Assembly (NCBI RefSeq): GCF_020085105.1
Contig: NC_058053.1
Coordinates: forward strand, 18,250,388 to 18,314,387
Direction of reading: 5' to 3'
From: Siniperca chuatsi
Lineage: Eukaryota > Chordata > Actinopteri > Centrarchiformes > Sinipercidae
Length of the DNA: 64,000 nt
Shown: in pieces, positions 1 through 58,285 of the stretch
How the letters are laid out: each line of letters opens with the position of its first letter
Position numbering within the stretch: position 1 is the first letter of the stretch
Translations under genes and position numbers: made by a program
The notes under the pieces: generated by a model
Databases searched by the model: none
What the model was told of the DNA's origin: nothing
The model's input: the letters and a program-made list of their open reading frames with translations, nothing else

Positions 1-1074
<1,074 letters not shown>

Positions 1075-1382: not shown

Positions 1383-3790
<2,408 letters not shown>

Positions 3791-3804
3791 ATTTTCTTAA
3801 GAAC

Positions 3805-3810
3805 TTTATT
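3805..3810 (-). terminator. Candidate poly(A) signal of me3
   Basis: TTTATT on the + strand is AATAAA on the - strand, about 1.1 kb after the me3 stop codon. It would give a 3' UTR from 4895 down to about 3790. Other AT-rich candidates exist. Confidence 0.4.
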
Positions 3811-4895: not shown

Positions 4896-16886
<11,991 letters not shown>

Positions 16887-22292: not shown

Positions 22293-22348
<56 letters not shown>

Positions 22349-34054: not shown

Positions 34055-37000
34055 CTGTTAAAGAAATACACCAAAAGCCAGACGTTAGAGACTTTGCATT
34101 CATGCTCATGCTAGGTTAGTCCAGCCTGGTGCCTGAGGCGTCCAAGTTTTATTACAATTAACAGAAATCATGCAGCTCAAGTGGTGTTAGTAGTAATGAC
34201 TGATTCCAGTGGGAAAGTAAGCCAGTAAGGAAGCATTTGTAACACTGTGATGTTTGCAAGCATGGTCAGATTATACAGTACATATTAAATTTAAATCATA
34301 AGTCATTTGTAATTGCTTTTACTCATTGTAAATTTATGCAAAAAATATTACTACTGCCTAGATAAAATCATGTCAGAACTAAATTATAAGCATTCAGTGT
34401 TAAGACCATAAATCTTGTATGTACATTGCACAAGAGACAATCAGATTATGTACATAAAACTGTAAAACATATTCAAATTCTATTTTATTCTTATTGTCAA
34501 CAAATCCCACGAAAAGCCCAAAACCAATAACGTCCTTTCTGACTTCCCCAAGCCTATTCGTTCCTACTTAAGACGTAAAATATTTAGATTGTAGTTTAAA
34601 AAAAATCATTTTTGGGCTACTTGCCTTTATTTGATAGATACAGTAGAGAGTAGACAAGAAATGAGACAGGAAGAGATAAAGAAGAGATGACATTCAACAA
34701 AGGTCCCAAACTCAAACCCGGGCACGTGGCAGTTACATCATTAGAGTCCTAAATCCTTAAGTCACCACAACATCTCGGAGTTTTATTTATTTTTAAACGC
34801 TTAGTAATCTCCTAAAACAGCTGGGCTGTAGCTTTTTGCAAACGTTACTCAAACAGGAGTAAATTTGTTGGAGACTATTTTCAGCGGCGGATTAATACAC
34901 ATTTGGTGGGCTAGTGCAGAGGCCCCCAACCCCTGGGCTGTGGATCAGTACCAGAGTTATTATTCAAAAAGTTGAATAATAATTATAAAACTTTATAGGT
35001 TATTATATTATGCTATTATTATGCTATTTGTGCTTTAATTACCTTGAACTTGGCACCGTTTGTGCTGCATATTTCCTCATTTACTGTCATGCCCCCAATA
35101 ACAATATACTGACTTTTAACTAAAGCAGGTCATCAGTACACGAGGTAACCAGTTTGTCATCACCACTTCAGCATTCAGTTGTAAATGAAATCTGTGTGAG
35201 GCCCGAAGTGTTCCTGAGAGGTCTATATGTATTTTTTTTATTATTTAGTAAGTAACCACAATGAAATACAGATCAAATATAGTAAAGTTTCATTTATAGT
35301 TTAGTTTTATACTCGCACACTCTCTCTCTGTGCTTTCTAACTTGGTATTGATGTGTATTTGAGTGTTGGGAGGATGATGCCTGAAACAAAACTTACATGA
35401 TCTGTGAACAGGCAGACAGACTAATTTGAAACCCCTATTTAACTTTATCTTCCTGTACTGCTGTGAGGAGAACAATTACACTTATGGCAATTGTCTACAA
35501 GTGCAACCGTGTGGCTCACTAATGTGTTTTTAATAGTTTATGGACAATAATGGAGCTCTATTGCACAGAGGAAAAAGCTACATCAGGCTTTGGCTACACA
35601 GACAACACTTATCAATCATTCATATCAATTCATTCGGTTTTGGACTTTTTATAGGATTAGTTGACAATAAGAAAAATATGGCATATAGCCAGACTTATCC
35701 TGTGAATATTTACAGGATTTAGAGGCTCTTTCCTGAAGAGCTGAAGAGGAAGGAAGTCCTTGTTCCTGCTACAAGTAACTCACCAGGTTTCGGCTCCTAT
35801 CTCTCTCCTCTCTGCCCCCCTGTAGTGTTTGGGACATTCCCTGGTGGGGGCGGGTGTAAGAGAAAGGCCTCATGGCTGGTTCAGTGGTCCTGTATCGGTC
35901 TGATCTGGGAGGTTCTACAGTGCGGTACCGGTCTGTGGTCGGGGCAGCCCTGCGGTACTGCTCCGCCTCCCACTCACAGTAAGGAGGCAAAGGGTCCTCC
36001 TCTTCTGGACGGTTGCTAGGCGACCGGCTGTAGTAACTATCGTTGCCCTTTCCTCTGGAGCTGCCTTTAGAGGGAGTGTCACTGTCTTCGTCCAGTCTAG
36101 CAGCACCTCTATCCCCTCCCCGCCCCCTCGCCTTGCTCTCCAGCACACTGCTGAGGAAGGCGTCGTCGTATCCTTTGCTTTGGGGCAGTCGACAGGGGCG
36201 ATCACTGTCCCACGTACCCCTTCTCTTCTGGGATAAAGGTGAGGGGCTGCGGCGGCCCCATCCATCATCTTCATCTCTGTAGAAATGCCTGGGAGGGCTG
36301 TAATCCCGCTCATAGGCCCGGTCTGGAGGCTCTGCCCGACGACCACGTGAGCCGAAAGACCGGGCGAAATCCTCCAGCTCGTCCAGGGAGCCGGTGCGCC
36401 CTCTTCTGCTCAACGTCTTTCTCTGTAGGTGCTCTGAGCGTGGGTTCCACCTACAGCAAGGAACAGCAAACAAATAAGCACACAGTGACATGTAATAATA
36501 CATTTTATTCATATAGCGCTTTTCAAGAGACTCAAAACACTTTACATGACAAATTAGGTAAAAAATAATAGAGCAGTCACAGTTCCAGATGAAGGGGCAG
36601 TTATGGAGAAGGCTCTGTCACCCCATGTCTGGTGCTTGGTCCTGGATGGTAGGGATACGAGGCTGGTGTAGTAGGAGCAAAACCAGGGAGCGTGGCTGAG
36701 GTAGGAGGTAGGAGGTAGGAAGGGAGCCAGTTATGGAGGATGTTGTGAGTGAAGAGAGGGAGTTTGAATTGAATTTATTGTGGGACAGGGAGCAAGTGGA
36801 GGTGTTAAAAGACGAGAGTGAGTAAATGAGCAGTTCTGGATATACAGTACTGAAGTTTATTGGAGAATGTAAGTAGGGGATCAGAGTTTCAGCAGCAGCG
36901 AAGGTGTTCTTCAAGTGGAAAAAGGTAGTTTTAGTAATGAGATTAGCGTGGTGTTTGAATGAGAGGTTGCTGTCGAAGATCACTCCAAGGTCGTAGATGT

Positions 37001-40000
37001 GTGGGGAGGGAGACAGAGTGGAGGTGTGGATGGTGACGGAGAAGTTGTGTGTGGTTTTGGTGATGGCTTTGGGTCCAATGATGATCATATCAGATTTGTC
37101 ACAGTTCAGTTTGAGAAAGCTGGCAGGGTGGAGTGAGTTGTAGTGGCAATAAATTCAGTGGATATGTACAGCGGGACATCATCATAAAATCTAGCAGATA
37201 CCGTGTATGCCTCTAATATCTGTCTATAAAGCCAGATATTGTAGCCTAATATGCAAGAGAGTGACCAGTGTGTCCCAAATGTTCTGGGGGAATTAAAGAT
37301 CCTGTGTAATGGACACTTGAACTTCACGGAAAACTGCTACTTCCAGGAAAACAGTGCATCCTTACTGGTGATGTCATGATGCACTGAGTGGGTTTACCAA
37401 AAAGTTCAACCAATAAAGTCATTAGAAATTTTCTAACAATCCTCTCCTCCCTGATCTGTTTCAACAGGTCACAAAACCATTTCATGGGATCTTTAACATA
37501 AACACATGCACTAATGCACTAAATAACACCATAATTATACCTTCTGTCCAGCTCATCGTCTGAGTAGTTGCCTCTGTCCCGTCTGGGCCTTCGACTCTTT
37601 GTAGGTGGAGCTGCTCTCAGCACTGACTGGTCGTCCAGGTCTGCAATGGGCGGGAGCGCCGTCATCTGGACCGTCTGATAGGTGTGTCTGAAGTCTGTAT
37701 TCCCTCCATCATGAAGAGAGCTCAGCTCTGATAGGCTACTGGCTGTTGGGGCAGACACATCAGTCTATTTTCATCATAAAACACATTTGGAAAACATTTT
37801 TCAGGTATGTTTTCTGTAACCGCCCCCTGGAGTACACAACTGTAGCTGTGAACATTTCAGAGTAAGATGTGGTCTGCTGGAAGTACTATGTAGGTGTTTG
37901 GGATGAGAGCATGGTACAAACTGTACATCAGCTACTCTCTGTTTTGAGGTGACTACGACTATATAATCATGAGCACTGATTATAGCTGAATGCATATCAC
38001 TGAAGGCATAAATGTCTCATGTGCCACCTCAAACTACTGTTGCAACCAATTTAAAGGACAAGTCTGGAGATATTTTTTTCCTTATTATCAACAAATCCTA
38101 AGAAAGGACCAAAACCAACAATGAATTGATCCTACTAACAACACTGTTACACTATTACTAACACGTTGTATGTAGTGTAGACCTCCATTGATGCCCAAAA
38201 CTATATAAAAAATACATCAATAAGCCACGCTGGTGTGCTGGGTAACATGTTTCTTCATTGCAATAAACATTTAAAGTGTATTTTATTTTGAGTCAGTCCT
38301 ACAAACATCGTCCTCCTGCCGTAAATACTCTCCACAGCACCAAACGTGCATTAATCCACGGCTGAAAATAGTCCCCAACAAATGTACTATTGATTCCTGT
38401 TCAAGTAACTTTTACTAAAAACTACAGCGCCCAGCTGTATTAGAAAATTACAGAGCCTTTTAAAAATTTTAACTTCACATTTGTGACCTGTTTTTAGAGC
38501 TTTTACACCTTCAGTAGGAACCAAAGAGCTGTGAGCCATAGACTGGAGATCAGAAAGTATTGAGAGACAGACCAGTGATTTGGTGTTTTCATGGAATTTG
38601 TTGAAACAAATATCCCTAGCTTTATCTTTTAAATGTGTACAAGACAAAGCACTTCTTTCTGATGAAACTGGCACATGTTAAAACTGTAACCACTGCTCTA
38701 AATCAGTGCGCAATAGGTCCATTAAACTACAGGTAACCACAACACCTATTAACTCTCACTGGTGAAATAAACCTAAAAATTTGCTACACTGACTACTAAC
38801 AAACTTTAAAAATGTCTTCTTTTGTAAGTGACCATGGGATAATCACGATTATTACTCTCTGAGATTTCCTGATACCCAACATAATCAACTAGGAGTGGGC
38901 GTTATGATGATATGTACCATGAGTAACGTGAGAATATATAAATTTGTCAACAGTCAGAGATTTTGCTGTACTGTTTATACTGTGGAGGTTTCACCTTTAA
39001 TACTGTAGGCAATGTTGCAAATCAATAAACAACTGTTTTTCCTGATTTTTGCATCAATGTGATGAAGTACTTTGATTTGACAGGTATTTAATATGCTTGA
39101 TTTTCCAGAAACTGCAACTACTGATAGAAGCGATAGAAGATGTTATCGACATTACCCACTCCTGTAATGGACTCAATGGATTTTGTGTGTGAGTGTGTGT
39201 GTTCGCACCTCTTAGTGTACTACTAATACACAGAGACCTTACAAATTAGGCTCTCTTTTTGAAAATGAGAAATGTCTTTTTCTGATCTTGGTAAGGACAG
39301 TTAGATGTTATGAAATGGATGTAAGGATTAGATGGAAACTAGTTTATCTACACAAACCATGCACTTAAAAGAGAAACACTTAGACACAAACACATAAACG
39401 CTGACACACAGCCACACAGATCACAGAAACTGGCCTCATCTGTGCAGGCTTACGTTTGTGTGCAGCCATCTTGACAGAGGGAAACTGAGCCAGCTCCTTC
39501 TCTATGTAGCACAGAACTTTCATTGAGTCCTGGTCTGGACTGGCTTTCAGTCGATAACCACTGCGCACTGTGGATATGGACACACACACACACACGTACA
39601 GTACATACACACAAAGAGACATAGTCATGCAAGGAGACACACACATACATGTAAGAGTTCAAGGCACATTCTTACCAGACTCAAATATGTTAAGACTAGA
39701 TTTAAGTAACAAACATGCATGTGGCCGACAGACATTTCTGTCATTTCTATGGCTTCTATGAAGGTTAGACACGGACTCGAGGATGAGGGATGATAGATGA
39801 AATAAGGGTTAGTCAAGTCAGTGTTTCTGAAAGGAAATAAGACAGAGCTTTCTAGTATCTCTGCAGCTTATAAACTGTTTTGTTGACACTCACCTCCAGC
39901 CAGGTTATTCTCCACTGAGGGAATAGAGGCGATCTTTGGGTCCCCATGGGATGAAGGGGCAAGAGGAACCACAGTAGGCACACCAGGAATGTAGTAAGGA

Positions 40001-43000
40001 TACACAGGAAGCTGAGCAGGCGGCCCACTCTTTGCCATCTTCCCTGCCTCATACACTGTGTAGGAGAACAACAAAACAATAAACCTTCCATGCAGAGTGA
40101 TTGCTGTCAAGTTGATACTGAGAATACACTTATAGTTAATTAAGCATGTTTCTTTAAGAAACTTTTGTCTGTGTTACTCACAGTGTCGTGGACAGCAGCA
40201 GGTGTCAGGACAGCAGCAGCAGCGGACATAGCAGCAGCAGGAGTGAGGACAACACTGGCACCAGCAGATCCCCAACAATAACAGGAACAAGATGCTGCCC
40301 AGGACTACAGATCCCACAAACGCCCACTCTGGAATATAGAAACACAAACACACACACATTATTCCTTCTCCATTTGTGTTAGGCAAGGTATGGTACGGTC
40401 TATAAATATCACAACACATGGACATAATTTATTACTCATGTAAAACAACTAAAGCACCTGACGGACTGATATGCAAAATAACTTGTATCCAGGATAACTG
40501 ACATTTATCCTGGATACTCTTTGGCTGACTGACAGCAGGTACTGTAATTTTATTTTATCTTTGGGAGGGTTGAAGAAGTAATCTGTTGTATATATAGCAT
40601 AATGCAGATTTATACATATTATGAAAATCAATAAAATAAAAGAGTGCTATAAACAAGCAGACACACATGCACAGATAAAGATATACAGCAAAAGTTAAAG
40701 TATTCTGTCCCAGCCCCCCTCAAAAGATTACAAGAAAATTACAAGTTACAGGTTAGACTTACAAACATGTCAACACTTACCTCGTGACAACCTCTGACGT
40801 CGACACTTTATACATTATACTTAAAGGATAATTCTGGGTTTTTACAACCTGGGTTGTATTTTCATAGTTTTGCCGTCATTCGTAGTGATGATAAAATGTT
40901 GTACTCAGTTAATTGCTAAGATTTGACAATGCAACGACATTGTCTAAAAAGTTTGACTAAAAGTCCAACGTGGCAAGAAACACGAGCAGTCAGACGATCA
41001 GACAAGTTAACTAAACTTCATTTGGAAGAGAATATAAAGGCGAATGGCAAAATTATCACCCAAAACAGCTATCGTTAACATCCATCACAGTTTGCAGACC
41101 AATTTCCTGGTTCAACTTTGACTTACCGTAGTAGCTGTAGTTTTGCGCAAACAGTTTTCTTTGAGGAATTATTACAGATGTTTTTGGCGCGCTCACTTCT
41201 GGTTTAACCTCCAGATCTCAGCAACTACTTTAGTGATTACAATGTTAAAATAATTGGTAGAAACAATGTTAAAGACTACAAAAATCAGACCCAAGTTATA
41301 ATAAAACTGAATTTTCCTTTTAAAACCATGCTGATGTTTCTACCTCCCCTTCAATGATGTATCCAGAAACCACAGAGCATAAAAAAGAGGAAACTTCAGG
41401 CAAACTCTCAGAAACGCTGAGTGACTCTTATCCATCATCACACGTCTAAAGCGTCCAGACCCTTACAACACACTTCCTCTGAAGTGAAGTATGCTGAGAA
41501 GCAAAATCCACTCAAAACCCCTCGCTAAGTCAACATATATGCCCTGTGGAATTTAAATCATGACCAAAGGACGAAGAAAGGATAAGAACTGTGATTCTGT
41601 GAATTTTTCCTTTATGTAGCTTTAATAACTGACTGACTGTGTGTAATTTCAGGTTGGGTTAGACACTTTTGCAACAGAGCTGTCAGATACAGCCTGTATA
41701 TCTTCCTCATCTTGACTGTAACAAATGTGAGATGAAGGTTCAGAGTCATCACAGACTCATGAATATACAATTGTTAGTCAAAGAGGGTTTTGATTGGTCA
41801 GTGAGAATATTAGGAGGCATTAGGGAAGCTAGAAGACGCCAGGCAGTGAGACAAAAGTGCAGGTGAGGTGCCGTACCTGGCATAATCTCCACATCAAACT
41901 CAGGTAGGAGATCGTCCTGCTGACCTGTCCTGCCTGCAGAGAGAGGGAGAGCACAGGTGAAGGCCGGCAGAGCAAGCAGAAAGCAAGAGTCAAAAGGTCA
42001 GGCAAATCAGAAAATTTGGCAGCAGAGTGGATGATTAATGGTCATGCACTAATTGAGGAACTGAAGGGACAAACGTCTTACACAATCAAAGTCAGCAAAC
42101 ATACAGTAACAAAGCATTCATGTCCCAATTCATGTAGAAATAAATGTCCCTGCCCGCTTAAATTTCAAAATGATTCATCTCACATGCTGTCATGATGATG
42201 AATGAGGACATTTTTAGCCATGCTAGCAGCCATGCTAGCGCCGGATGGATTGTCAAGAAATTTTGTGCAGACCTTCATGGTCCCCAGAGAAAGAATCCTA
42301 ATGACTTTGATTATCCCCTGACTTTTCCTCTAGCGCTGCCATGAGATTGATATTTCTGGTTTTAGGTCAAATGTCTCAACAGTTATTGAATAATACATCA
42401 CAGACATTCATGTTCCCCTCAGGATGAATTGTAATAACATTGGTGATCCCTTAATTCTTCATCTAGTGCCATCATTAGGACTAAATTTTAATTTGCCCAA
42501 AGTTTGATTTATGACCAAATACTGCAAAACTAAAGACATTGTTTTTAATGCTACTTAGCAAAGGTTAGCATGTTAACACACTAAACTAAAATGATGAACA
42601 TTATACCTGCTAAACATCTGCATGTTAGCATTGTCACTGTGAGCGTGTTAGCATGCTGATATTAGCATTTACCTCAAAACACCCCTGCACCTAGCTTGTC
42701 TTGTCTTGTAATCACATGAATCACAGTGATTCATGTGATATGTTTTGGTGTCCAGAGTTCATGCTACTAAATTATGATGACACTGATTTTCTTAGAAGTG
42801 TTTTCAGAAATTCTAACCTGTGAACATGAACATAAGTCATATGAGTCAGAGTTCAGAGTTCAAAACACACTTTACTTTGAATCTAATTTTAGCAGGAAGC
42901 CAGCTGTACTATATTTCTGTAATGAGGTGCACACCACGCATGTGCCTCTCTGGTGGCGTTAAAACTGCACACAAAAGAATTAATGCACATGCTGACAAAC

Positions 43001-46000
43001 AAACACACACACACACACACACACACACATATTGAGACGTGCCAAGAGAGGCAGTGTGTGAGGACAAAGATGGGGTTTTGGAAACTGGGGCACATAACGA
43101 TTCTAGGACAGTTTACGACGGGAGCTCATCAAAAAAAGGTCACACAAGTTGTATGGTTGTGAAACAATGCCCCTCTTGTGCTTCGTATACAAGATACACA
43201 GGTCAAAGAAGAAAACCAAAGATTCAAGGCAGCTAGAAAACTGTAAAATATAGAGAAATAAAGGGACTGCAACAGGTGCGCTGAGACTGGGACACAACTG
43301 CAGGTAGTATGTGTTTATCGTGAGGTGTCAGGGGACTATAATTACAGTAAAGAGCAGTCACTGTCTGAGCTGTCTGACTGCAGTGATAGACTAAACACCC
43401 ACTGGCTCCAGAGTGTGCCAAGTAGACTGTTACTATGGAGGGGGGAAAAAAACAGCGTACCCTTCCCACCTGATAAAAAAAGTAACCTTACTTCCCTGGC
43501 ACACTCATCTACATACCATGAAGCTCAGTAACACTGAGAAACCTGAGAGAGTCGAGGAGCTATGCAGCCCTGAGAGGGAGGGAGGCAGGCAGTGAGAGTT
43601 GCAGGAATGAGTAATGGAGGAGTATGTGAGAAGATTTTGCAAGACAAAAGGGAGAGCAAAGGGAGTGAATGTCAAAGAAAAATTAATCCAAAAGAGCACT
43701 TAAACCAGAGATTATGAGATGGTGATAAAAGAAACAGCACAACTTGTTGCTTAAAGGAATACGTCGACGTTTTGGGAAATAGCTCATTTGCTTTTTTTGT
43801 TGAGAGTTAGGTGGGAAGATTGACACCGCTGTCATGTCTATATGGTAAATATGGAGCTGGAGACAGCAGCTGGTTAGCTTAGCTTAGCATAGAGACTGTA
43901 AGCAGGCAGAAACAGCTAGATAACATGTTACATCTCTTTTGTTTAATCCGTACAAAATCAGAAGTTTAAAATCAACAATTTGTGATTTTGCGTGAGGTTA
44001 TGTGTGGACTATTTACGGTTTAAACAAACAAGATATAAAGTGTTAATCAGTGAGCTTTAGAGGGGCTGGTAGGCGTATTTTGTTACTTTCGGACAGAACC
44101 AGGCCAACTGTTTCCAGTCTTTATTGCTAAGCTAAGCTAACACGCTGCTGTCAGTAGCTTGATATTGAACCGACAGATATGAGAGTTGTATAAATTTTGT
44201 CATCGAATTCTAGGCAAGAAAGCGAAAAAGCGTATTTCCCAAAATGTCAAACTATTGAGTAAGTATGAGATCTCAAAACTTTAGGAAAATGTTTTTGTTA
44301 AGTGGTTTTACACACTTTCTACTTCCAACTTCTTCATTGCAATGTGGTAAAGCTAAAAGAAATCTTGTACCAAAACCCAGTGTAGTCTTGTTATTCTCAC
44401 ACGTTTAATCCCCCACCCCCCTTCTCTCCTGTGAGCTGATTATAATCAGATTAGTGCTCAGAGGAGGAGGGCTGTATGAATGAGCAGACGTTAATACTAC
44501 AAGCAAGCACATCGGGTTAGTCAAAGTTAAAGGAAGAAAACCATTTTGGGTAACTTTCAGATCACATTGTTGTGAGAGTTTAGCCTGGTTCGGCCCTTTT
44601 CTACGTCTCGCTCTTCATGTCTACACCAGCAGCAGCCGTCAACATGCTCCAGTCTCCTCTTAAAAAGCACATCGCCATGGTAACAGCTGAAGGCGTGGCT
44701 TTGGCAACAATGGTCTCCACAATTTCTCTCACTGAATGGACCTACCACTTCAAGTTTCATCGACAGTAGATGGTGAATCTCTGCCCTTCAGCGCTGAAAC
44801 ATTTAGGTGGGTTTGAGGAGCCTTGTATAATCATTAATCAGCAACAAATGATCACACACAAACCGTTGTACAGCTGAACATTTCATCCCATACAGTTTTT
44901 GAAGCTGTCCCTGACAGCTGTAGTGTCTAACTGACTTAATATGTACCTAAAGTACAGTCCAGCCAAGTCCACGTCAACCCTGCAAAGTGAGCTGTTGGCT
45001 AAATCATGCAAAGAGGAAAACACCATTTGACCAAACCATGGAAACGGTCGTGAAGACACTTTGGAATTCAGAGACTATTTCTAAAACCTTTACTAACATA
45101 TAAGAAGAAACGTCACTGAGGTTAATATGAAACCAAACAAACAAACAAGCCAGCCGATCACGATCAGGCTCAAAGTTTCTTTTGAGTCTTTATGTCATTA
45201 CTTTGATAAAAAATGAAGTGTAGGCATACCGAGCACCAGTAACTCCAGCTGGGCCTCATTCTTCCCCTCCAGATCATCAGCAATGACGACTTTACAGAAG
45301 TACACTCCACTGTCGCCCCACTGCAGCTCCCCAATACGCAGGTCTGCTTCTGCACAGAGACGGGAAACAAGGTTATATGTGCTGTAAGAGGTGAGAAGTC
45401 AAATGGCAGATCACATTCACAAAGCAGGTGAGTGTTAAATCGCTGCATTTGTGAATTCAAATTGATTAACGTTGACAACAAACTGAATATAATGACTTGT
45501 TTTCTGACACTCCTCTAAATGTACAATCCTAACAGTATTTGGGTGCAGAAAACATTGACACCTGTGCAGTTATGTATGTACAAGAACTTTGCCTAAATGA
45601 AATTTAGCATGCCTAAATGAATTTTGCCAAAAATTGGCAGAAAATGTTATTTACATCAGAAACAACTGATCAAAGCAAACAAGATCAGAAATCTGACCAG
45701 ATATTTGGTGCCGTTGGGTACTTGACAAATTTCAATACTCCGTGCTATGGACACTTTTTGGTTGGTACCAAAAGCATTGAGGCCTGATACACAGTCCTAA
45801 TAAATACACCTATAACTGGACACCTATAACTGGACATTGGTCTGTGAGACCAACACAAAAAAACACAAACAGCTTTCAGCTGTTTGTGTTTTTATTATCT
45901 GCACAGACAAAACTAAATACAAAGCTTTAAAATGACGACAGGAAGGCAGTGTTGAACGTGATACGTTCCACTGACACATTTGGATAGAAGACGGGTGTTT

Positions 46001-49000
46001 TGTCTCGATAAGGCTTGAGGTTTTACAAGGAGTCATACATGAATAGGAGTGAGAGCAGGGGGTTGTGATGGTGTGTGTGTGTAGTGCCTACTCTATTGTG
46101 AGACAAAGACAAAAGAGGTTGATTTAGACAACAGGAAACACGAAGCACAGCTCTGAATCCTGAGTGCAAACAGCTGCAGCAACTCTTTTCTCCTTAATTC
46201 ATAATTTTAGGATAAAAATGATGACATTACTGTTTACGATGGCGATGTCTCGGCCTTTGTAGTGCTCAGCCAGCGTCATGGAGGCTCCCTGCGCCGAGGC
46301 CACAACCCGAACTGTGCGGCTGCTGTCGGAGCACTCAAGGTGGGACGTGGCACCCAGCTCTGAGGCCTTGACGCCCAGACTCTCCTGCAGGGTGAAGGAC
46401 TCTCGTGTGCGGTCTCGACAGTAGGACTTGTACCACCACTGCACCACCGGGGTCTGAGTGGAGGCCGTTTGGTACTGGCACGGGAGGACCACGGACTGGA
46501 AGAGCATCGCAAACCGCTGCTTCTCCCGCACTGTGACATGGACACCATCACACACACACACTGACACAGACAAAACAAATAGAGAGAAAGAAAATGGGAA
46601 TAAGTAAAAATGAACATTTCTTTAAAAAAAAATTGACACAAATATATTAACCTTTTCTATGACTCCTGGACACGTGATTTGACTATTCAGCGAGGCATGC
46701 AAATGTTACTCTAAGATAAAAATGTGTGCGGAAAACTTTACACAAAGCATTTAATCGGCATTGAGAAATACCAATACCAAGGCACCTTCACAGAGAGTTT
46801 ATTCACTTATTTTACACCCGAAAGAGGAGGATCTCTCCCATTATGAACATTTGAGGGGAAAAACACTGAGTGATTTTTGTCACTATCGATTGATGTGCAA
46901 ATTCTTTTTTTGATTAATCTGTTATTCCTATAGACTATGATTTCAGAAAATTGTGAAAATAGATAGAAAATAGATATAAAAGTTCCTTTTGCCCAAGTTG
47001 ACATCTTAAAATAGAATTTTTTTGTCCAACCAAAGAGATAAAACACACATTTAAGAGGCAAGAACCAGCAAATGTTTGGCTTTTCTGCTCGATAAATTAC
47101 TTAAATGAATAAGCTAAAGACTAATTTCATCCCTGACTGAGTTGCCAGTTTATTAAGTACACGTATCTAAATTAATGCAGTATAATATAAATCCTCCCTT
47201 CATGAAGATTATAATGTTCAGTTTTTCTTGAAACTGTTTTAGAGAGGTGTTGATTCAACATTGTGATCATTTTGGAGAATGTAATTTGTGGTGCTGCTGA
47301 ATTGAAAAGAGAAACATGCTCATAATAATTTCCTAAAGCCTGTCTTCATATGTCTCGTTTTGTCCAACAAACAGTCCAAAACCTAAAGATATTCAGTTTA
47401 CTGTCAAATAAGACCAAGAATAGCAGCAAATCTTCACAATTTAGGGAATTTTTTCTTGAAAATCAAAATAGTTGTGGACTATTTTTCTGTCGATTGACTA
47501 ATATTTTAATCAACTAATTGTTTCAGCTCAAGCTTCTGGTCATATTTAGTATACCCTCATTGATATAATTTAGGTGGACAAGCTATTGCAGAGCTGTTGT
47601 ATTAAACTACATTAGTTTTATCTGAGTGTAATAAACTGGCAACTGAGTGTAGACAAAAACAGTTTAAAGACAGGAAAAGGATGCAGATGACATCTTGATC
47701 ACAGAAGTAACAGCTGTGCCTCCTCTTTGTCTGTGTGGATGATTCTCGAGTGTGGAGGAGTACACCTGGGAGATATTTTGCGACATATCAAACCAGGAGC
47801 AAAGACAGGAAGAGAGATTAGGTGTGTGGAGGGTGGCTCGTCTGTTGCTCGGTACCGGGGTCAGGAAGGTTAAATTCCAGTGTGTGTGTGGGGGGGGAGG
47901 CCTGTGGAGAGGCAGGGGGTTGTCATCACAGAGGGAGGAGATGGAGTGGTCGGACGCTCGTGGGTGCTTTCTGCTAGTCATGTTAAGTCTAGGTGGGGCA
48001 GGAACTCACTCTAAACATTTCCCAGAAGACAGGAAATCAAAACAAAAGCAAGTCCACCAGCCTGCCTCTCCTTAGGACCGTTTATAGCATTTATCTAAAA
48101 TGGACGCTTTTCCTAGTTTCCTTCTGACATGAGCTCAAGTCTGCTTATTTCCAGGCCACCATTACGGCTGCAACTAAAGAGTTATTTTCAGTCACGTCTT
48201 CAGTGGTATTCTGTCCGACTAACGGTCCAAATCTCAAATATTTTCAGTTTATAATCATATAAAACAGACAAAAGCAGCAAATCCTCACATTTGAGAAGCT
48301 GGAACCAGAAAATGGTTTTCATTTTTGCTTGAAAAATAACTGAAACTAATAATGGATTATCAAAATTGTTGCCAATTATTTCTCCGTCTGTTGACTAATC
48401 GATTAAGCGATCCACAGACTCCAGTGGTGATGAAGCCCAATGAATTTTACAGGATAAGAGAACAAGAGCACGGCCGAGCTCCTAAATTCCTCCCAAGAAA
48501 GAGCTCTGGTCTTCCCTTTGTTTCTTTTTTTCATGGACCAGTCCATTGTTAGGACTGTGCTGAACCCCCCCTCCCCTGTCCCACTTGAGGAGCTGAGAGG
48601 GGGAGGAGGTCACAGACTCCCAACCAATGAGAGTATCTGGCCTCGTCCAGCTGGGTGTGAACAGACCAATTAACTGCTAGAGATTTAAGCCAAACCGTTA
48701 CTCCATGAATGCAATCAGTCAGAGGTGAGAGGACGTTCGGATAAACAAACCCAGAAACTGCTGGATGCATAACTGACAAGCCTCAAAGTGACTGTTAACC
48801 ATTGTTTATATCAGGTGTGACTCACTGTTGGTTAATGAACAGGTTACAGAGGCAGCAGACAGTCTCTCCCTCCACCTGCACACAGACTAAAGGCCTCATT
48901 TCAAGATCAGACTGCGTTTTAAAAGACTATGTGGCGACGAATGTATTCCAGGTCCACGCTCTGCTGCTGGACACTGCAAGTTTCCTGAACACAGTCAGAG

Positions 49001-49979
49001 TGTTTCCTCTCTGAAGCTGTCACATTTCCTGCTTTTACTGCATTGTACATTCCTTCACATTGACTCATTAGTCCAACAAAACCCCCGGATAAGACTGAAT
49101 ATAGTCTCCATGTTTGATAAAGGATTTCAATACAGTTTCACAGCAACACTCAGAAACTTTGTCTCGAGTGCTTTGCTCACAGATTAACTATCACAGGTAC
49201 ATTTTCAGCCCTCTTGAGACCTGATGAGCACTTTGTGGTCTCTAAATGTAGTTTTAAAGTTTTAAATTATAGCACTGGTATAGCAACTAACATTTATTTT
49301 CAATTTCATCTGTTATATAATAACTATTATAACTATTATATTGTTGATTCATCGATTCATCATTTTGTCTATAAAATGTCAGAAAATTGTGAAAAATGCT
49401 GGTTGTAACTTCCCACAGCCCAGGGTAATGTATTTGAATAATTTTCTGACTCATCGTTGCAGCTCTACATTGGTATATTGTACCTTTAAAGTACAGCTCT
49501 AGTATTAAACATTGTACTTCAAAATGCACAATTATGCTTTTATATAGCACTCTGCAGCTGTATACAATACATATAGGCCTATAACAGCAAAGCTATAAGC
49601 CCCTAGAGAATATTTGTTATCATATCTGAGGAGATAAAGTATACTATAAAGTAAACACAAAATTGAATATCAGACACTATAAATCCCTGAAGGAATATTA
49701 GGGTTGTCTCATAAACCCCCTAATGTGTTATTAATTGGGGCAAACCATCACTATAATGGCGCATACATCTCGCTTAATTCACCCAAATGAAATATAAAAG
49801 CACTTTATTATGTCTAATGTATACAGATCCGTCTGTACAGCGGCAGCAAGTTATATAGGATCAACCTGTTGCGCTGTTGTCGTAAATATGACACATTTTA
49901 GCGAAGAGGACATGTTTTAGTGAAGGGAATAAGACTTACCCGATGCTCCCAGTAAAATAAGCAGCCGGTAAAAGTTCAT
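34019..49979 (-). CDS. ildr2: ILDR2/LSR-type angulin (Ig-like domain-containing receptor)
   Basis: Single-pass Ig receptor, sister of the ildr1 gene beside it; expected at tricellular contacts. Ten coding exons in phase: 49940-49979, 46231-46560, 45230-45349, 41877-41933, 40182-40328, 39894-40055, 39454-39567, 37541-37742, 35784-36450, 34019-34054; about 624 aa (human ILDR2 639, LSR 649). Signal peptide about residues 1-19; V-type Ig domain about 20-165 with [14 protein letters not shown] and SGVYFCKV; the 57-bp exon gives [19 protein letters not shown], found in ILDR2 and LSR but not ILDR1. Membrane segment after [11 protein letters not shown], then [20 protein letters not shown]. The tail has [36 protein letters not shown] and [19 protein letters not shown], closest to ILDR2, but ends ALSRDSLIV, closest to LSR (LSRESLVV). 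The ildr2 symbol rests on the tail and on the gpa33/pou2f1 neighbours; lsr is the alternative. Confidence 0.88.
34480..34915. repeat. Family F repeat interrupted by a SINE-like insertion
   Basis: The flanks (near ttgtcaacaaatccca at 34495 and caaacgttactcaaacagga at 34838) match two parts of the repeat at 38045-38445. Between them, about 34600-34770, sits a SINE-like block resembling the one at 13190 (ggtcccaaactcaaacccgg). The SINE appears to have landed inside an older family F copy. Confidence 0.6.
36490..37140 (-). mobile_element. LINE reverse-transcriptase relic in ildr2/LSR intron 8
   Basis: On the - strand 36618-37088 is a 156-codon open stretch with [20 protein letters not shown], then FFHLKNTF, the C-terminal end of an L2/RTE-type non-LTR reverse transcriptase. 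It lacks the catalytic palm motifs and the rest of the polyprotein, so it is a dead fragment. The 3' side (about 36490-36560) has ttattcatatagcgctttt, a common fish retroposon tail. Confidence 0.7.
38045..38445. repeat. Interspersed repeat, family F (ildr2/LSR intron 7)
   Basis: Starts near aaaggacaagtctggagata and ends near aaactacagcgcccagctgt. It shares its end blocks with 34480-34915. Confidence 0.6.
40821..41330. mobile_element. MITE-like element, family G (ildr2/LSR intron 4)
   Basis: Bounded by ttaaaggataattctgggtt and, inverted and less exact, actgaattttccttttaaaa. The interior has no coding frame. Short inverted ends and the size of about 510 bases suggest a non-autonomous DNA element. 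Confidence 0.5.
42205..42690 (+). mobile_element. Family A element, copy 3 (ildr2/LSR intron 3)
   Basis: Same orientation as the copy at 12725. It shows agccatgctagcagccatgc at the start, a block near cttcatctagtgccatcatt, and acattatacctgctaaacat near the end. Confidence 0.8.
43002..43029. repeat. (CA)n microsatellite
   Basis: About 14 CA units in ildr2/LSR intron 3. Confidence 0.93.
43750..44265. mobile_element. Interspersed repeat, family D (ildr2/LSR intron 3)
   Basis: Starts near aaaggaatacgtcgacgttt with ttgggaaatagctcatttgc, has gttagcttagcttagcatag inside and its near-inverse gctaagctaagctaacacgc later, and ends near gtatttcccaaaatgtcaaa. The outer blocks are imperfect inverted repeats of each other, which fits a MITE. 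Confidence 0.65.
45859..45893. repeat. Perfect 16-bp hairpin in ildr2/LSR intron 2
   Basis: AAAAACACAAACAGCT at 45859-45874 pairs with its exact complement at 45878-45893, leaving a three-base loop TTC. T-rich sequence follows on the + strand. Confidence 0.85.
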
Positions 49980-50110
49980 TATAGAGTCCGTTTTATAGTG
50001 AAGTGCAGTTTATCCGCATGTTGGTGCTCGTTGTCCGCAAACTGCTGCTGCTGCTAACAGGACAAACAGACTGCGACTAACGGGACTGTACCACTTCACA
50101 CGGAGGTGAG
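49980..50110 (-). promoter_or_regulatory. ildr2: Probable 5' UTR and promoter of the ildr2/LSR gene
   Basis: The DNA just upstream of the start codon at 49979 is G+C- and CpG-rich compared with its flanks (ccgcatgttggtgctcgttg, ccgactactcctctgctact). No TATA box was seen on the - strand. Confidence 0.35.

Positions 50111-50413: not shown

Positions 50414-50417
<4 letters not shown>

Positions 50418-50489
<72 letters not shown>
50418..50489. repeat. (AT)n microsatellite
   Basis: About 36 uninterrupted AT units, some 440 bases upstream of the ildr2/LSR start codon. Confidence 0.96.
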
Positions 50490-50491
<2 letters not shown>

Positions 50492-50984
50492 GCAGCTCTT
50501 CCATTTAGCACACAAAAACATGAAGAAAAAGTTGAAAACAAAGTAACATCTTTATGTTACAAATGATCACTTTAAGTAAAAAAAAAAATCTATTCATCTA
50601 TTCTTTGTTACTTTTAATCACGAATTACAGGTTAAAACAGGTTAAAAAGAGACTTACTGCAGTAGATAGGTGGCCTAATTATGTGAGCTATAAATGTATT
50701 AATCATTTGAGGGTGTTCTACGACCTTCTTACATTTATTGAGATTCGGGCACAATGCAAGTTTTCATGAAAAAAAAATTCAATGCTAAAAGGGATTTAAA
50801 AACTTTTTAGCTGTAGGATTGATTTTATCATGCAAGTAACATTAAATTATTTACATCAAATACAAATGAACTTTGAGGAAAGTTGATCAACAAGTAATAA
50901 AGCAACAAGTGATGTAAATTCAGGTCAGGTTAACAGAAGGCTAACATATTCTGGTTTCAACCAAATCGGTATACATTTTACTTA

Positions 50985-51481: not shown

Positions 51482-51575
51482 ATCCAGTGTGTAGGATTTA
51501 GTGGCATCTAGTGGTGAAATTGCAGATTGCACCGCTCGCATCGCCCTCCCCTTCCAAGCGTGTAGTAGAAACTAT
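51482..51575. repeat. Repeat-derived segment reaching the gpa33 stop codon
   Basis: The text ccagtgtgtaggatttagtg, catctagtggtgaaattgca and then ccctccccttccaagcgtgt is, from memory, a very common interspersed sequence in percomorph genomes. It abuts the MITE and runs up to or into the gpa33 stop codon (51572-51574). Confidence 0.5.
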
Positions 51576-54500
51576 ACGATTGGAAGCTTACGGCTTTCAC
51601 CAAAATGTTCACGCTGGTCATCAAGGCGATCACGACTGCCTCCATAACGACCGCGTTGATCGTCAAGGTGATCACGGCTGCCAGCGTAGCGATCGCGTTG
51701 ATCGTCAAGGCGATCACGACTGCCTCCGTAACGGTCGCGTTGATCGCCAAGGCGATCACGACTGCCTCCGTAACGGTCGCGTTGATCGCCAAGGCGATCC
51801 CGACTGCCTCCGTAACGACCGCGTTGATCGTCAAGGCGATCACGGCTGCCAGCGTAGCGATCGCGTTGATCGTCAAGGCGATCACGACTGCCTCCGTAAC
51901 GGTCGCGTTGATCGTCAAGGCGATCACGACTGCCTCCGTAACGGCCACGTTGATCGTCAAGGTGATCACGACTGCCTCTGTAACGATCACGTTGATCGTC
52001 AAGGCGATCACGACTGCCTCCGTAACGGTCGCGTTGATCGTCAAGGCGATCACGACTGCCTCCGTAACGGTCACGTTGATCGTCAAGGCGATCACGACTT
52101 CCACGATAGTGATCATGCTGGTCGTCCTGGTAACGTTGAGACTCAATTTCACTGCCCTTGCCATCATGCCTTTCTTTACCACTATTATAACTGTGTCGAT
52201 CATCCTCAAGCTTATGCCCAGCTGTTATGCTGTAATTGTTTTGAGGAACAACGTCTTTGTCTTCATGCTGGTCGAGCTGCTTTGTCCCGCTGTTTGATTT
52301 GTCATCACAGTACTGCTCAGCTTCAGCAGCATCTCTGTCATAAAACTCCACTTCTCCGGGGGAACTAACAGACAAGCGGGGACAAAATACACAAAAGAAA
52401 GAAAATGATGAGGCTGGGTGGTTGGATGATTGAATTAAAGCACCTGTAAACACCAACAATCAATACACTAACATAAATGTTGGTGGTGGCTCACAATGGC
52501 AGGAACACAAAGGATACATCATACATACCCTTCAGCATACTTCTCATTTTTGCCCTTTTTCCGGCAGCAACAGAAGATGAGAATCCCCAGAAACACGAGA
52601 CCTGTGATGACTCCTCCAATTATAGCTGCAGTGGACCCAACGTTCATGCTTCCTGGGGAGGAAGGAGGTTTCACACTACACTTAGTCCAGAGCTAAGGTT
52701 CCCTTTTGGCCAGCGTTGTTAGCTATTTTAAACTATTTTTCAGCAAAATGTGTTTTTTTGGGAGACAGATTACGTGATTTTTTTTCTCTATCTTGACATT
52801 TGTTAAATAATAAAAATTTCAGTACTGAGTACCCCCCCCCCAGCAAAATCAATAAAACTGGCCACTAGGGTGCAGCAGGACAACTGTAACCACAGCATCG
52901 ATATGTTATTACCGCAAGTTGTTATAGTATATGTGTTAACACTTTGCTAAGCCCTTCCCCCTTATGCCTTTCTGTTCTTGCATGGGACATATGCCGCTTA
53001 CACTGACAGCAGATTTACCATTCAAAATTTCCATATCCATTTTTTAAACAATGGGTCCTTGATTTTTACAGAGGTAAACAAAAGGAGGCTTTTGAATTCG
53101 AGCCCCCGATTGTAATTATGGTTAGCTCCATGAGTTGGTTGAAACGCTGCGTCCAGGCTGAGTCGTTTGAAACGAGAACCATGTAAAATGTCACTCCAAA
53201 CATGCATTTGGTGGCTACATACACAATATCATGCTAAAAGACTGAGGTTAAAGTCACAGTTGATGATCCATGTAGAAGACATGGAAATAAAAGAGCAGCA
53301 TGTTTTTATACTGCATGGTAGAACTAGTTAGCTAGTATTACAAACAGTACATGATAAGGGAAAAGGTCAGACAGTTATTTTGTTTTGACATAACCCTGTT
53401 TGGATGCTTAGCTTACAGAAAAACATACTGGGACAAGCAACATAGATGTTCTGATAGTTATAAGATTTATACTTTATTGTTCGTATTTTTAAACTGTATG
53501 TTGAAGAGAACAAACTTTATGTTGAGGACTAACTGATGTGTTTGGCAATTGTTACGCTATCTCAGGTTATGATTTGCTGGGGTTGCTGGAGTGTCAACTT
53601 CCGAAAGCATGGGACAGAGCTGGTTACACTGAACTATTAGCACCCAGAAGTGGCTTTCACACAGTACGTTGTCCTAGTCCTATAGAGAACTTTTTCCAAT
53701 TTGTAATCCCACAAAATGGTGTAGTTAGCTACATGATGATTGGCTTTGTAAGTAGCGTTTTTACTACTTTAGGTAGTAAGCTAGTTACCTGGACATGATA
53801 ACTTGCAGCCTACATCAGACTTGACAAATACAAAGTTTAATCCATTCTTTACACTTATACTGTTGAGTTTTTGGTTTGGAAAGTCAAAAAACAAAAACTC
53901 TTTAGATACCAAGAATCACTCTTACTACAGTTCCACACACACTGCTTTGACGTGGAGAAATCCAAAGCTTGACAGACCTGACCTGCCTAGTTACAGTCAC
54001 TAAGCTAGGACAACTCCTGTTTGGAGGAGGGTTTAGCAAATGTTTAATTGTCCAACACATCCGGCAGACACAGAGCAACATTAGCTGTGTGTTTCTGTCC
54101 ACCTGATGACAGTAAGTCCAATATTCACTCTCCTTTTAGCTCAGTTTTGTTGTCTACCAACTCCTGAGAAAAAATATCTGACCTTTTAGCGCCTAAATGC
54201 TCCACTATGTTCATCAGCTAGTTGCTAACTTTGTCTGCCATTTGATTCTGGAAATGTAGTGTACACTGAGTTTATAAGAGCTTTTGCGCTGAAAACAGCT
54301 GCCTGTCGCTGCTGCTGGAAACAAAAGAGTGGAATTTACCACATGAACTAAAAGTGGCTAAAAAGCTCAGAGGATCTGAGGTGAAATGCAGAATTATATG
54401 GTAATTCGTCAAGAACAGGTGAGCAGGTAAATCATGTTATAACACTCACCGGGCATCACAGCCAAGGTAATGTTGCAGCTGGCAGAACCAATTCGATTTA

Positions 54501-57500
54501 TTGATGTGCATACGTAGAACCCAGACATTTCTCTTGTAATATTGAAGAGAGATATAGCTCCATCCTCTGCAACATAATCACAAAAATTAATGCTGAGATG
54601 ATGGGCCATTGTGCCATTCTTTACATTGACACTGATGATGGGAAACAAACTCTCCAGCAGCCTGCCAGAGATGTGTGCTTCAAAGTAACACATGGATGGT
54701 TGAAATGCATACTTTCGGCTGTCTTAGGTGGAAATGGTCTGGGAACGTTTTCCACACTGTAGCTCTTCCATTGAGACACAGGTTTTGGGGATCCCTCCTC
54801 AGACAGGCAGGTGAGGGTGATGTCTTGAAAGTACTCTGCTTTTCCCTTAATCGTGCAAATTGGCGCAGAGGGAGGCACTGGAAGAAAACATTTAACATAA
54901 AAAGTTACGATCACTTTATTACAAGAAAACTGCAACAAAATGCAGAATTGATTTTACATCTTCATAGAGACAACATATAAATACAATTATTCACAACAGA
55001 CAGATAAATAGACTTAGAACATGTCAGTGGTTAATTCTCACCCAGGACCAAAAGGGAAGTGGTGGCAGAAGTTGTTCCCTCATCATCATTGGGGATCAGG
55101 ACACCGCATAGGTAACGGCGGCTGTCCTGCGCGGTCACCTTTGTTAAGCGGAGTGTGCTCACTTGTTTGACCATGTCAACCTCCATAAAGGCTCTGCCTT
55201 CATAAGCAGGTGCAATGTCAATCGGATTGTTTAAAAAGTAGGTGGCCACGGATTTCTAGAGAAATAAACACAAACATATTTTACAAAGATATCTGTTCAT
55301 TATAATATAATAATACAATATCATAACAATGCCGTATCATGATAGTAACAGTAACCGTAACAGTATCATGATAGTATAATCAATGCCACGCCAGAGTTCA
55401 CCATGACATTATGTAAGGTTTAAGGATAGAGGGTACCATATGCTGTACAGTATGGAACCCCAAAATGTTCAATATTAAATAAATATAAAAGACATTATCA
55501 AATTAATAATTATATGAATAAATTGTGGAAAATAAATAAATGAACCAAGAATTTGTGAAATAATTATACTTATTATTATGAAATGTTATTTCTTTATTAA
55601 TTTTCATAATAAAATTTTATTAGGTATCGTTTTTGTTTCATCATGGCATTTTTCCCATTAACACATTTTACGTGTTTACTTATTAATAAGTTTTATTTCA
55701 TAATAGTGGTGTTGTCAGCAGTCACCACCCTCTCACCTTTCAACCAATAACATTTCCCCTGCCTCTCTCAAGCTAGCAAGCTCAACAACTGCTACCAAAT
55801 GTAGCCAGTTAGCTCCTGTTAGCTAGAGCAACAGCATCTAGAGGCTGCTGCTGTAAATAAACACAGTACACAGACGCTGTACCTAAACTTCTGTAGCTTT
55901 TAAGCTTAACAAGGCTGCTCATGCTACCTAGCTAGCTAGGCTGGCTTGTAGGTTTAAACTCAGAACTCAAATACATTTTTCACATGTGGCCCTAATCCTC
56001 TTCCGTATAGTGCAGATAGTAAAGCCCTTTGAAGCTTATAATTCTTATTTGTAATTTGGGGCTCTATAAATAAAATTGACTATAGGCAGGGTTATCTGCT
56101 TAGAGCCTAAATAATCAATCGATTACTCAAACAACAGAAGAATAATCTGCAACTATTTTGATAATCGTCAAAGAAAAAGTAATTTTTCAAGCAAAAATGC
56201 CAAACATTCCCCGCTTTCACCTTCTCAATTGTGAGTATTTGCTGCTTTTATCTGTCCTATATGATAGTAAACTGAACAGATTTTGACCCATTGGTTAGAC
56301 AAAAGCAAGCACTGGACAAGTCATCAAGCAACTTGATGACTTCACCTTAGACTCTACACAACTTGTCATGGGCATTTTTCACAATTTTCTGACATTTTAT
56401 GGACTAAACGATTCATGGAGAAAATAATCTGAAGACTAATCAATAATGAAAATAATATTTAGTTGCAGCCCTATATCTGCTAAATAAGTGTAAGAAGTAT
56501 TGATTATTACACTCATTCTTCAGTTTCATTTTCATCTGATACATGCAGCAGTGGGTTATGTGCAAGAGGCAATCTTGACTCTTCACTTATTCATCATCCA
56601 CTGAACAAAGGTCATTACCACTACATACAGGGAGGAACTTGCATGCTCTAAATTTGGAACTTATCAAGTATCACATTCAATTAAAGCACAGGACACCTCC
56701 ATATAGAAACTGTTACTCACTATCACTGTCCATAAGATGTGACAATGCCACAGCCTTGATATGAATATAGTCTATACAGTAGTATTACACGCTAAAAATG
56801 TACCTAGTGTGGGTCAATGTAGCACCGACACAAAAATGGGGTTAATGTTACCCAGTACCAATGTTTTTTTTGACCCAGTGTTAGTGTTACTGGATCAAAA
56901 CAACTCCTTGTCTTTTTTCTACCCATCTGTAAAGTTAACCCTTTATTATTATGGCCAGCAGTAGGTACATTTTTAACCCAGTGATTTTTTGTGTGTAATA
57001 TTTTCTGATAACATGATCACTGATGTGAGATGCTAGTAAGTTGCTACTACCATAAAGTTGGGGGAATTGCGAGAGACAGATTTAAAAAATTGAAGCATCA
57101 GAGAACTCCAACAATGCTGCATCCTCCCTGTCTGGTAAACACCCATGTTGTTCACATTCGTCAAGTCAGAAGTTGACGTGTCCGGCCAAGATAAAGCCAC
57201 AGAGCAACAAAAGAATCATACAACTGTGGTCATAGGCTGTGCAGCTGTCGTACCCCCAGAGCAGCTTCTTTCCTCAGGCTGTGAGACTACTTAATTCATC
57301 CATATAATGATTGTTTTATGTAAAATCAGCGGAGTTCCCCTTTAGGTAGCTCACCACAATATGCAGTATGAATAAGATGTTATAACCACACATGCAGCTA
57401 GTTTAACCTCTCACCACTGTATCATCGACACTGTCAGGGTAAGCTGCCCATTTGATGACGAGTGTGTTGGAGACTGGTCTGGCTGGGATGAAGGAACAGG

Positions 57501-57972
57501 TCAAGTTAATAGCTTCTCCACTTGGAACCTCGTATTCTTTCTCTGGAATAGAAACCTGCAAACTCCTGCAGCAGGGAAGTACTGCAATAAAAAAAGAAAT
57601 ACATAATAACAGATATCAATCTCTTTCCCAGTCATAGTCATTTATTTGGTGTTTTTGCAAAATTGGTAGAGGAAAATTTGATGTGTGATTTAATTTGACC
57701 AACTTCAACTACACTATGTTTGTATGATTAAATATAATATTCAGTATGTTTCTTTCAAGGCAAATTGAATAAATGGTTTCACCTACAGGTCTCTTTTAAG
57801 TAAAACATAATCCTGTTTCCGGTTGAGTAGCAAGAAGTCAGATTAATGATTAACACAGGTGACAATAAAGGTGTGGTAGTAGTTTGTATAAAAGAGAAAG
57901 AACACAAGCATAATTCTTACCTGTGAGTATCAGAAATAGCTTCCGCCATCCAAGATGTCTCTTTGTCGTCAT
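51572..57972 (-). CDS. gpa33: GPA33 (cell surface A33 antigen)-like Ig receptor with expanded repeat tail
   Basis: CTX-family epithelial surface protein. Seven coding exons in phase: 57921-57972, 57415-57581, 55042-55255, 54713-54877, 54450-54566, 52529-52652, 51572-52364; about 543 aa, much longer than human GPA33 (319). Signal peptide about residues 1-25 (start MTTKRHLGWRKLFLILTG). V-set Ig domain about 26-144 with INLTCSF and RRYLCGVL. C2-set domain about 145-238 with LTCLSEEGSPKP and GFYVCTSIN, and the extra cysteine pair (APICTIKG, SASCNIT) typical of A33. Membrane segment about 247-265 (AAIIGGVITGLVFLGILI) followed by CCCRKKGK. The tail is strongly charged; residues 368-535 are twelve units of GSRDRLDDQRDRYG. 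It ends ESRKLPIV. Best matches by eye to GPA33 are PPSAPIC, TCLSEEGSP and the CNIT block, plus its place beside ildr2 and pou2f1. The extracellular part could also suit another CTX member, but the double cysteine pair argues for A33. Confidence 0.87.
51599..52102 (-). repeat. gpa33: Coding 42-bp minisatellite, 12 units, in the gpa33 tail
   Basis: Twelve head-to-tail units of 42 bp, each coding a variant of GSRDRLDDQRDRYG, with one degenerate unit upstream (52103-52144, ESQRYQDDQHDHYR) and a partial one downstream. Variation is limited: Arg/His at position 5, Asp/Gly at 7 and 11, Gly/Ala/Arg at 14. The unit length is a multiple of three, so the frame is kept whatever the copy number. Each unit holds TGATCG and CGATCA (or a close variant) six bases apart, able to pair. 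Confidence 0.93.
52653..54449. other. gpa33 intron 5
   Basis: About 1.8 kb. It holds a family H repeat copy at 54060-54400 and AT-rich DNA. No extra exon between the C2 and membrane exons was found. Confidence 0.55.
54060..54400. repeat. Interspersed repeat, family H, copy 2 (gpa33 intron 5)
   Basis: Shares ctccactatgttcatcagct, agttgctaactttgtctgcc and ctcagaggatctgaggtgaa-like blocks with 21170-21620. Confidence 0.6.
56100..56480. repeat. Family B repeat copy in gpa33 intron 2
   Basis: A well-preserved copy: aatcaatcgattactcaaac at one end, aaaaatgccaaacattccc and gatagtaaactgaacagatt inside, and ctaatcaataatgaaaataa at the other end. Confidence 0.75.
56785..57000. repeat. Short interspersed repeat, family I, with inverted-looking ends
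   Basis: aaaaatgtacctagtgtggg near 56795 and gtaggtacatttttaaccca near 56960 are imperfect inverted copies. Inside are several acccagt/gttaatgtta variants. It is probably a small MITE. Confidence 0.45.
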
Positions 57973-58285
57973 TGCTAAAAGAGGATAAAAATGTCCAGCC
58001 ATTAAAATATCTGAAATTGATGCTCTCAGTCCAAGAGCGAGAGCCCACCTGACCTTCACGGTGAACTCCCATGTATAGAGAAGTTGACTCTTCCAGGTAA
58101 TAAGTCAACAGCTATAGGTCACATGTCACCAGAAGGCCAATCATTGATCTGTTTTCCCTTTGTTTAAACCTGCCCATTAGACATGAATGTGATAAGGAAG
58201 GGGGCTATAAAACAAAAAGAGCTTAATAAATTATAACAAAGACAGAAAAACACAGACTGTTAATTGATCCCTGATACAGTGAAAC

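Follow-up and report, generated by a model that had tools for sequence, protein, structure and literature searches.

A stretch of 64,000 nucleotides from Siniperca chuatsi (assembly GCF_020085105.1, contig NC_058053.1, positions 18,250,388 to 18,314,387; in the following called the window) contains a gene for a probable orthologue of the receptor GPA33, and the last exon of this gene carries a tandem array of twelve 42-bp units. As judged from the DNA sequence, the array is apparently a real in-frame coding repeat whose protein sequence is under constraint. The uniformity of the units at the protein level reflects constraint more than youth, because the differences between them are mostly silent and the silent divergence is substantial; old units with some later exchange of blocks fit the data best. 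As for a role, we rate the chances as about even that the expanded array, with its 168 residues under selection, works as a weakly structured polyampholyte spacer.

Units, divergence and coding constraint of the array

An earlier note on this DNA had described twelve 42-bp units at positions 51599-52102, and coordinates, unit number and unit length all proved exact when checked independently with Tandem Repeats Finder (TRF) and the gene model. The strand, which had not been stated, is minus for both the gene and the array, with unit 1 starting at 52102 and the last unit ending at 51599 (12 × 42 bp = 504 bp). TRF reported a period of 42 with 11.4 copies, 90% matches and 0% indels at 51621-52099, and its score of 776 was the highest of all 15 TRF rows of the window, which is free of any N. 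Read in the frame of the modelled gene, the unit consensus encodes GSRDRLDDQRDRYG. A search of the assembly (718.8 Mb, 65 contigs) with 811 bases across the last exon, in which simple repeats and very common words were skipped, matched one genome site only, namely the locus itself. The array and the similar blocks upstream of it are the following:

51599..52102, minus strand: tandem array of twelve 42-bp units encoding 14-residue blocks of the GSRDRLDDQRDRYG type, residues 378-545 (TRF, gene model, unit alignment)
52103..52144, minus strand: degenerate in-register block ESQRYQDDQHDHYR, directly before the array (unit-profile score)
52184..52225, minus strand: possible second degenerate block TAGHKLEDDRHSYN, weak and one residue out of register (second-best profile score)

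Differences within the array fall mainly on silent positions. In the gene frame, the 36 differences from the unit consensus comprise 23 silent and 13 replacement changes, a silent share of 64% compared to 27% expected from the genetic code with transitions weighted threefold. The distinct changes, each taken a single time, number 19, and 11 of these are silent (binomial p = 0.004). The Nei-Gojobori method yielded a replacement divergence (dN) of 0.052 and a silent divergence (dS) of 0.356 for the 55 pairs among units 1-11, i.e., a ratio of 0.146, which becomes 0.155 if only the nine distinct units of this set are used. With all twelve units the ratio amounted to 0.118 if a failed dS value of -1 is kept in the mean, and to 0.113 without negative values. 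Three other frames are open through the array as well, with 1 of 27, 2 of 36 and 11 of 33 differences being silent. Changes in two of these frames are almost all replacements and the third lies near its expectation of 26%. One plus-strand frame shows many silent changes (20 of 33) but contains two stops per unit. There is thus no indication of an overlapping gene in another frame. Taken together, an in-frame tandem repeat with a unit length that is a multiple of three, an open exon and an excess of silent changes are what a coding minisatellite displays, and the statement of the earlier note that the array is coding within the tail is borne out by its frame and by the exon, which is open throughout.

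The low divergence of the units had been attributed to recent turnover, which holds only in part. Mean pairwise identity of the twelve units is 87.9% (range 73.8-100%). Turnover is supported by two identical pairs (units 2 and 5, units 6 and 10) and by a weak four-unit periodicity: exact copies of 81 and 77 bp recur at three- and four-unit spacing, and among units 1-11 those at a spacing of four are more alike than expected from random order (p = 0.008, uncorrected, with seven lags tested). A dS of about 0.36 against a dN of about 0.05 speaks against recent turnover as the general cause. The last unit is the most diverged and clearly decayed, with 9-11 differences from each other unit.

Since ESQRYQDDQHDHYR matches the unit profile in register, it suggests that the array may have grown from an older charged segment. 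The score of this block was matched by 0.04% of shuffles at its site and by 3.1% anywhere in the 87-residue segment that precedes the array. A further subdivision of the unit into an ancestral 21-bp heptad repeat (RDRLDDQ / RDRYGGS) was considered and is not supported. Its halves agree at 8 of 21 nucleotides, which 49% of codon shuffles matched; their protein identity of 3 of 7 was matched by 4.7% of shuffles.

Composition and possible roles of the repeat tail

The 168 residues of the array comprise 46 R, 42 D, 26 G, 12 S, 12 L, 12 Q, 11 Y, 3 H, 2 A, 1 E and 1 F. With 46 positive and 43 negative charges, the fraction of charged residues is 0.53 and the net charge +0.018, and the charges are mixed evenly (kappa 0.049 compared to 0.153 ± 0.034 in shuffles, with none of 1000 shuffles so low). 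The 87 residues before the array are acidic (net -0.126 per residue). Inspection by eye revealed neither YxxPhi motifs nor immunoreceptor tyrosine-based inhibition motifs around the Tyr residues, and no canonical PDZ ligand in the C-terminus KLPIV.

These features might be accommodated as follows. The array would have been born from an existing charged tail segment by slippage or unequal exchange, with exchange at times moving blocks of about four units, and selection would have kept 168 residues that are near-neutral, with evenly mixed Arg/Asp and one Leu and one aromatic residue per unit. The tail would then run from the transmembrane segment through three juxtamembrane cysteines, the 87-residue acidic segment and the neutral repeat to eight final residues. 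In this arrangement the array may be a soluble polyampholyte spacer, long and with little structure, that keeps the C-terminus off the membrane and whose length is fixed by the number of units. The pattern of Arg, Asp and Tyr could additionally offer many weak, identical contacts, for which a charged partner, the inner leaflet or other tails are possible binders.

Several observations weigh against such a selected, weakly structured spacer. The dN/dS values of unit pairs are not independent and have few changes behind them, so that they give a direction rather than a precise figure. Even mixing of charges was copied together with the unit and does not represent twelve independent observations; it describes the tail and is no proof of selection. 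The four-unit periodicity would fail a strict correction for the seven lags, and the second and third in-register blocks upstream of the array are unlike the unit, with scores matched by 23% and 85% of shuffles, respectively. Finally, the best AlphaFold2 model of the 263-residue exon product shows one continuous helix from residue 71 to residue 258, for which the predicted local distance difference test (pLDDT), averaged over ten residues at a time, is 78-90 across most of the array and falls to 57 at its end. The array DNA read in an unused open plus-strand frame served as control and gave no helix but short strands with a mean pLDDT of 42, and therefore the helix is not a mere reaction to any repeat. 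This model would suit an unlikely alternative, in which the array forms a long alpha-helix, either single or conditional, that bears a thin Leu/Tyr stripe flanked by Arg and lies on the inner leaflet or binds a partner helix. The seven-residue spacing of Leu and Tyr in the unit agrees with this, as does a mean hydrophobic moment, at a seven-residue angle, of 0.27 compared to 0.17 in residue shuffles; however, the periodic moment was matched by 19% of within-unit shuffles. Moreover, the prediction was run on a single sequence without alignment, its predicted template modelling score (pTM) was 0.28, and the mean pLDDT of the five models ranged from 71 to 47. Available passages of a study on AlphaFold2 describe a high-confidence helix also for the polyglutamine protein ataxin-8, which is predicted to be disordered (pLDDT > 90), and regard such lone helices as possibly plausible (PMC10622901). 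Single alpha-helix domains are known for enriched i/i+4 salt bridges and few helix breakers, and the array shows neither: at i/i+4, 22 pairs carry opposite and 20 carry like charges, and 26 of 168 residues are Gly. The mean helix propensity of the array is 0.51 compared to 0.33 for EEEEKKKK. A stable helix is doubted because of this Gly content, the propensity and the missing excess of i/i+4 opposite pairs. The earlier note had proposed a charged, extended or helical segment; the mixed Arg/Asp charge stands, and its form may be either, a helix being predicted and a stable one being disfavored by the composition. Judging by sequence and models, the product is most likely an extended, perhaps partly or conditionally helical cytosolic spacer.

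It is about equally unlikely that the array has hardly any function and is simply an expansion that a disordered C-terminus tolerates, with units that spread by slippage and are only kept soluble and in frame. Its end only eight residues short of the stop in the last exon, its absence from the human GPA33 sequence used for comparison and the decay of the last unit would all be expected then; however, 11 silent changes among the 19 distinct ones, where 27% are expected, and a dN/dS of about 0.15 indicate constraint on the residues. Far less probable is a role as a membrane-tethered Arg-rich mixed-charge domain (R-MCD) that drives receptor clustering or condensates, or that targets a released tail to nuclear speckles. 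The R/D composition and even mixing do resemble R-MCDs as described in available passages of PMC9324279, but according to the abstract of that paper the peptide in which the residues alternate failed to phase separate, an argument against a role in condensates (PMC9324279). The nucleus would be out of reach for a membrane-anchored tail unless it is cleaved, for which there is no support, and Leu, Tyr and Gly-Gly-Ser in nearly each unit differ from plain R/D tracts. An assembly artefact or an untranslated stretch is scarcely credible. Tandem arrays are easily misassembled, but here the units can be told apart by many differences, which are mostly silent in the gene frame, the exon is open throughout and the window contains no N.

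In a bolder proposal, which we hold to be improbable at present, an adhesion receptor of the gut epithelium might have gained a selected, length-variable Arg/Asp repeat on its cytosolic side in the lineage of this fish. The repeat would be the membrane-bound equivalent of the mixed-charge domains known from nuclear speckles, with the number of units tuning receptor clustering or membrane association. If the array is expressed and variable, a known receptor would carry a charged segment, disordered or helical, in a natural series of lengths, so that the effect of tail length on receptor behavior could be compared between individuals or species. The array also illustrates a trap in reading repeats, since near-identical protein units may be old; here the silent sites have diverged and the protein has not.

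Gene model, identity and neighborhood

The modelled gene encodes 553 residues in seven coding exons, all of which are bordered by GT/AG and agree in phase. Signal peptide and transmembrane segment were read by eye from the model, which consists of the following parts:

57921..58002, minus strand: coding exon 1, with a probable signal peptide (start codon picked by eye, with another ATG 10 codons downstream)
57415..57581, minus strand: coding exon 2, first part of the V-set domain (gene model and Pfam)
55042..55255, minus strand: coding exon 3, second part of the V-set domain (gene model and Pfam)
54713..54877, minus strand: coding exon 4, first part of the second immunoglobulin (Ig) domain (gene model and Pfam)
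54450..54566, minus strand: coding exon 5, second part of the second Ig domain (gene model and Pfam)
52529..52652, minus strand: coding exon 6, transmembrane and CCCRKKGK juxtamembrane segments (by eye)
51572..52364, minus strand: coding exon 7, the last, with tail, array and stop codon (acceptor and stop)
50734..50739, minus strand: candidate poly(A) signal AATAAA, 832 nt past the stop (pattern match only)

The last exon is 793 bp long and open from the acceptor (52364) to the stop (51572), which follows eight residues after the end of the array. A search for hidden splice sites in this exon with simple patterns found one GTRAG near the 3′ end and no acceptor-like match. The segment 50979-51482, which on the strand of the gene follows the stop and precedes the first AATAAA (50739), is bounded by 24-nt terminal inverted repeats that are 92% complementary and 456 nt apart. 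It resembles a short DNA transposon within the 3′ untranslated region of the gene.

Pfam matches above the cut-offs comprise V-set and Ig_3, overlapped by the models I-set and ig. When the complete ectodomain is considered, the closest relative with a solved structure is the coxsackievirus and adenovirus receptor (CXADR; E = 1.2e-17); the higher rank of Fc receptor-like protein 5 stems from several summed Ig matches. A blastp comparison of two sequences only, the fish protein and a human GPA33 sequence that was not a database record, showed 30% identity over 319 columns (E = 9e-47). In the window and 60 kb around it, tblastn found no second GPA33-like gene: of eight rows, seven belong to the gene in question, and the remaining one, which is weak (E = 0.003), falls on the neighboring Ig gene. 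On one flank within the window lie two genes with LSR domains (22930-23169 and 40180-40428), and on the other flank a Pou exon and a Homeodomain exon are found at most about 11 kb outside the window. We take these neighbors to be ILDR1, ILDR2 and POU2F1. In human, ILDR2 and POU2F1 are located near GPA33. Because of the exon phases, the Ig domains, the similarity to this human GPA33 sequence and the LSR and POU/homeobox neighbors, the gene is probably a GPA33 orthologue, and the GPA33-like identity proposed in the earlier note is thus upheld.

The two LSR-family (ILDR-like) receptor genes adjoin the GPA33-like gene in tandem at 20193-26681 and 35769-49980 on the minus strand, with extents read from open reading frames. 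Pfam searches of their larger open reading frames gave no matches, the LSR domain being found only in short transmembrane exons. The nearer of the two has a tail exon at 35769-36617 (minus) with a small charged duplication of its own. Between it and the GPA33-like gene, TRF detected a perfect (AT)36.5 microsatellite at 50417-50489. Further away, the window contains an NXPE-family C-terminal domain at 484-1074 (plus) and a malic enzyme exon at 6371-6679 (minus). Positions 2750-6100 of the separately numbered sequence L006 hold broken frames that by eye resemble a non-LTR retrotransposon with endonuclease-like and zinc-knuckle-like stretches.

Relatives of the array and comparison with known systems

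For the tail, Pfam contains no accepted family: matches to V-SNARE_C, EzrA and Exonuc_VII_L were weak and below the cut-offs, and the 87 residues before the array matched no family. A search of the PDB, with the first five units as query and an E limit of 10, listed only two matches (E = 0.45 and 4.9), neither of them convincing. Among viral contigs, 13 pattern matches were found, none of which was confirmed by tblastn. The earlier note knew of no description of such an array, and this agrees with the open-licence literature: no tail array is described among the papers listed for GPA33 (A33 antigen) combined with fish or with repeats, nor in the available passages on gpa33. Specifically, the available passages report human GPA33 as outgroup for zebrafish JAMs (PMC3399880), gpa33 in the gene list of a selection scan in tilapia (PMC7359307) and gpa33 as enterocyte marker in killifish (PMC12611280), in each case with no mention of a tail repeat. 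Variation of gpa33 is also described in available passages on other fish, namely the loss of the fifth exon through a 1,256-bp deletion that is fixed in scale-eating pupfish (PMC7826174) and, in Nile tilapia females, higher expression together with more genomic copies of the whole gene as measured by quantitative PCR (PMC4176596). These cases concern exon loss and gene dosage, and a tail repeat is unmentioned in the same passages (PMC7826174, PMC4176596).

With the human GPA33 sequence used for comparison, the fish protein shares a V-set and a second Ig domain, a single transmembrane segment followed by a Cys cluster, and the SMNV motif. From the Cys cluster onward, however, the tail has 278 residues here, 168 of them in the twelve units, compared to 62 residues without array in that human sequence. 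GPA33, the cell surface A33 antigen, belongs to the CTX branch of the Ig superfamily, and the human protein has a short acidic tail without such an array, a description that agrees with the human sequence used here, which is not a database record. The fish tail with its twelve-unit array is neither short nor acidic, its net charge being near zero; we regard the short acidic tail as a mammalian trait that is not needed for GPA33 orthology. Between this human tail and the fish tail before the array only a weak alignment was obtained, with a score matched by 2.2% of shuffles. CXADR is similar as the closest solved relative of the ectodomain and differs in being another gene, for which we know of no comparable array. 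The coding minisatellite of MUC1 is likewise an in-frame tandem repeat in an epithelial membrane protein; the repeat of MUC1 is extracellular and O-glycosylated, whereas the array described here is cytosolic and charged.

In composition, the array comes close to the R-MCDs of nuclear speckle proteins, as it consists mainly of R and D (46 R, 42 D and 1 E of 168 residues) and has the low charge segregation described for these domains in the available passages (PMC9324279). It differs from them in its location on a membrane receptor and in the presence of Gly-Gly-Ser, Leu and Tyr in nearly every unit.
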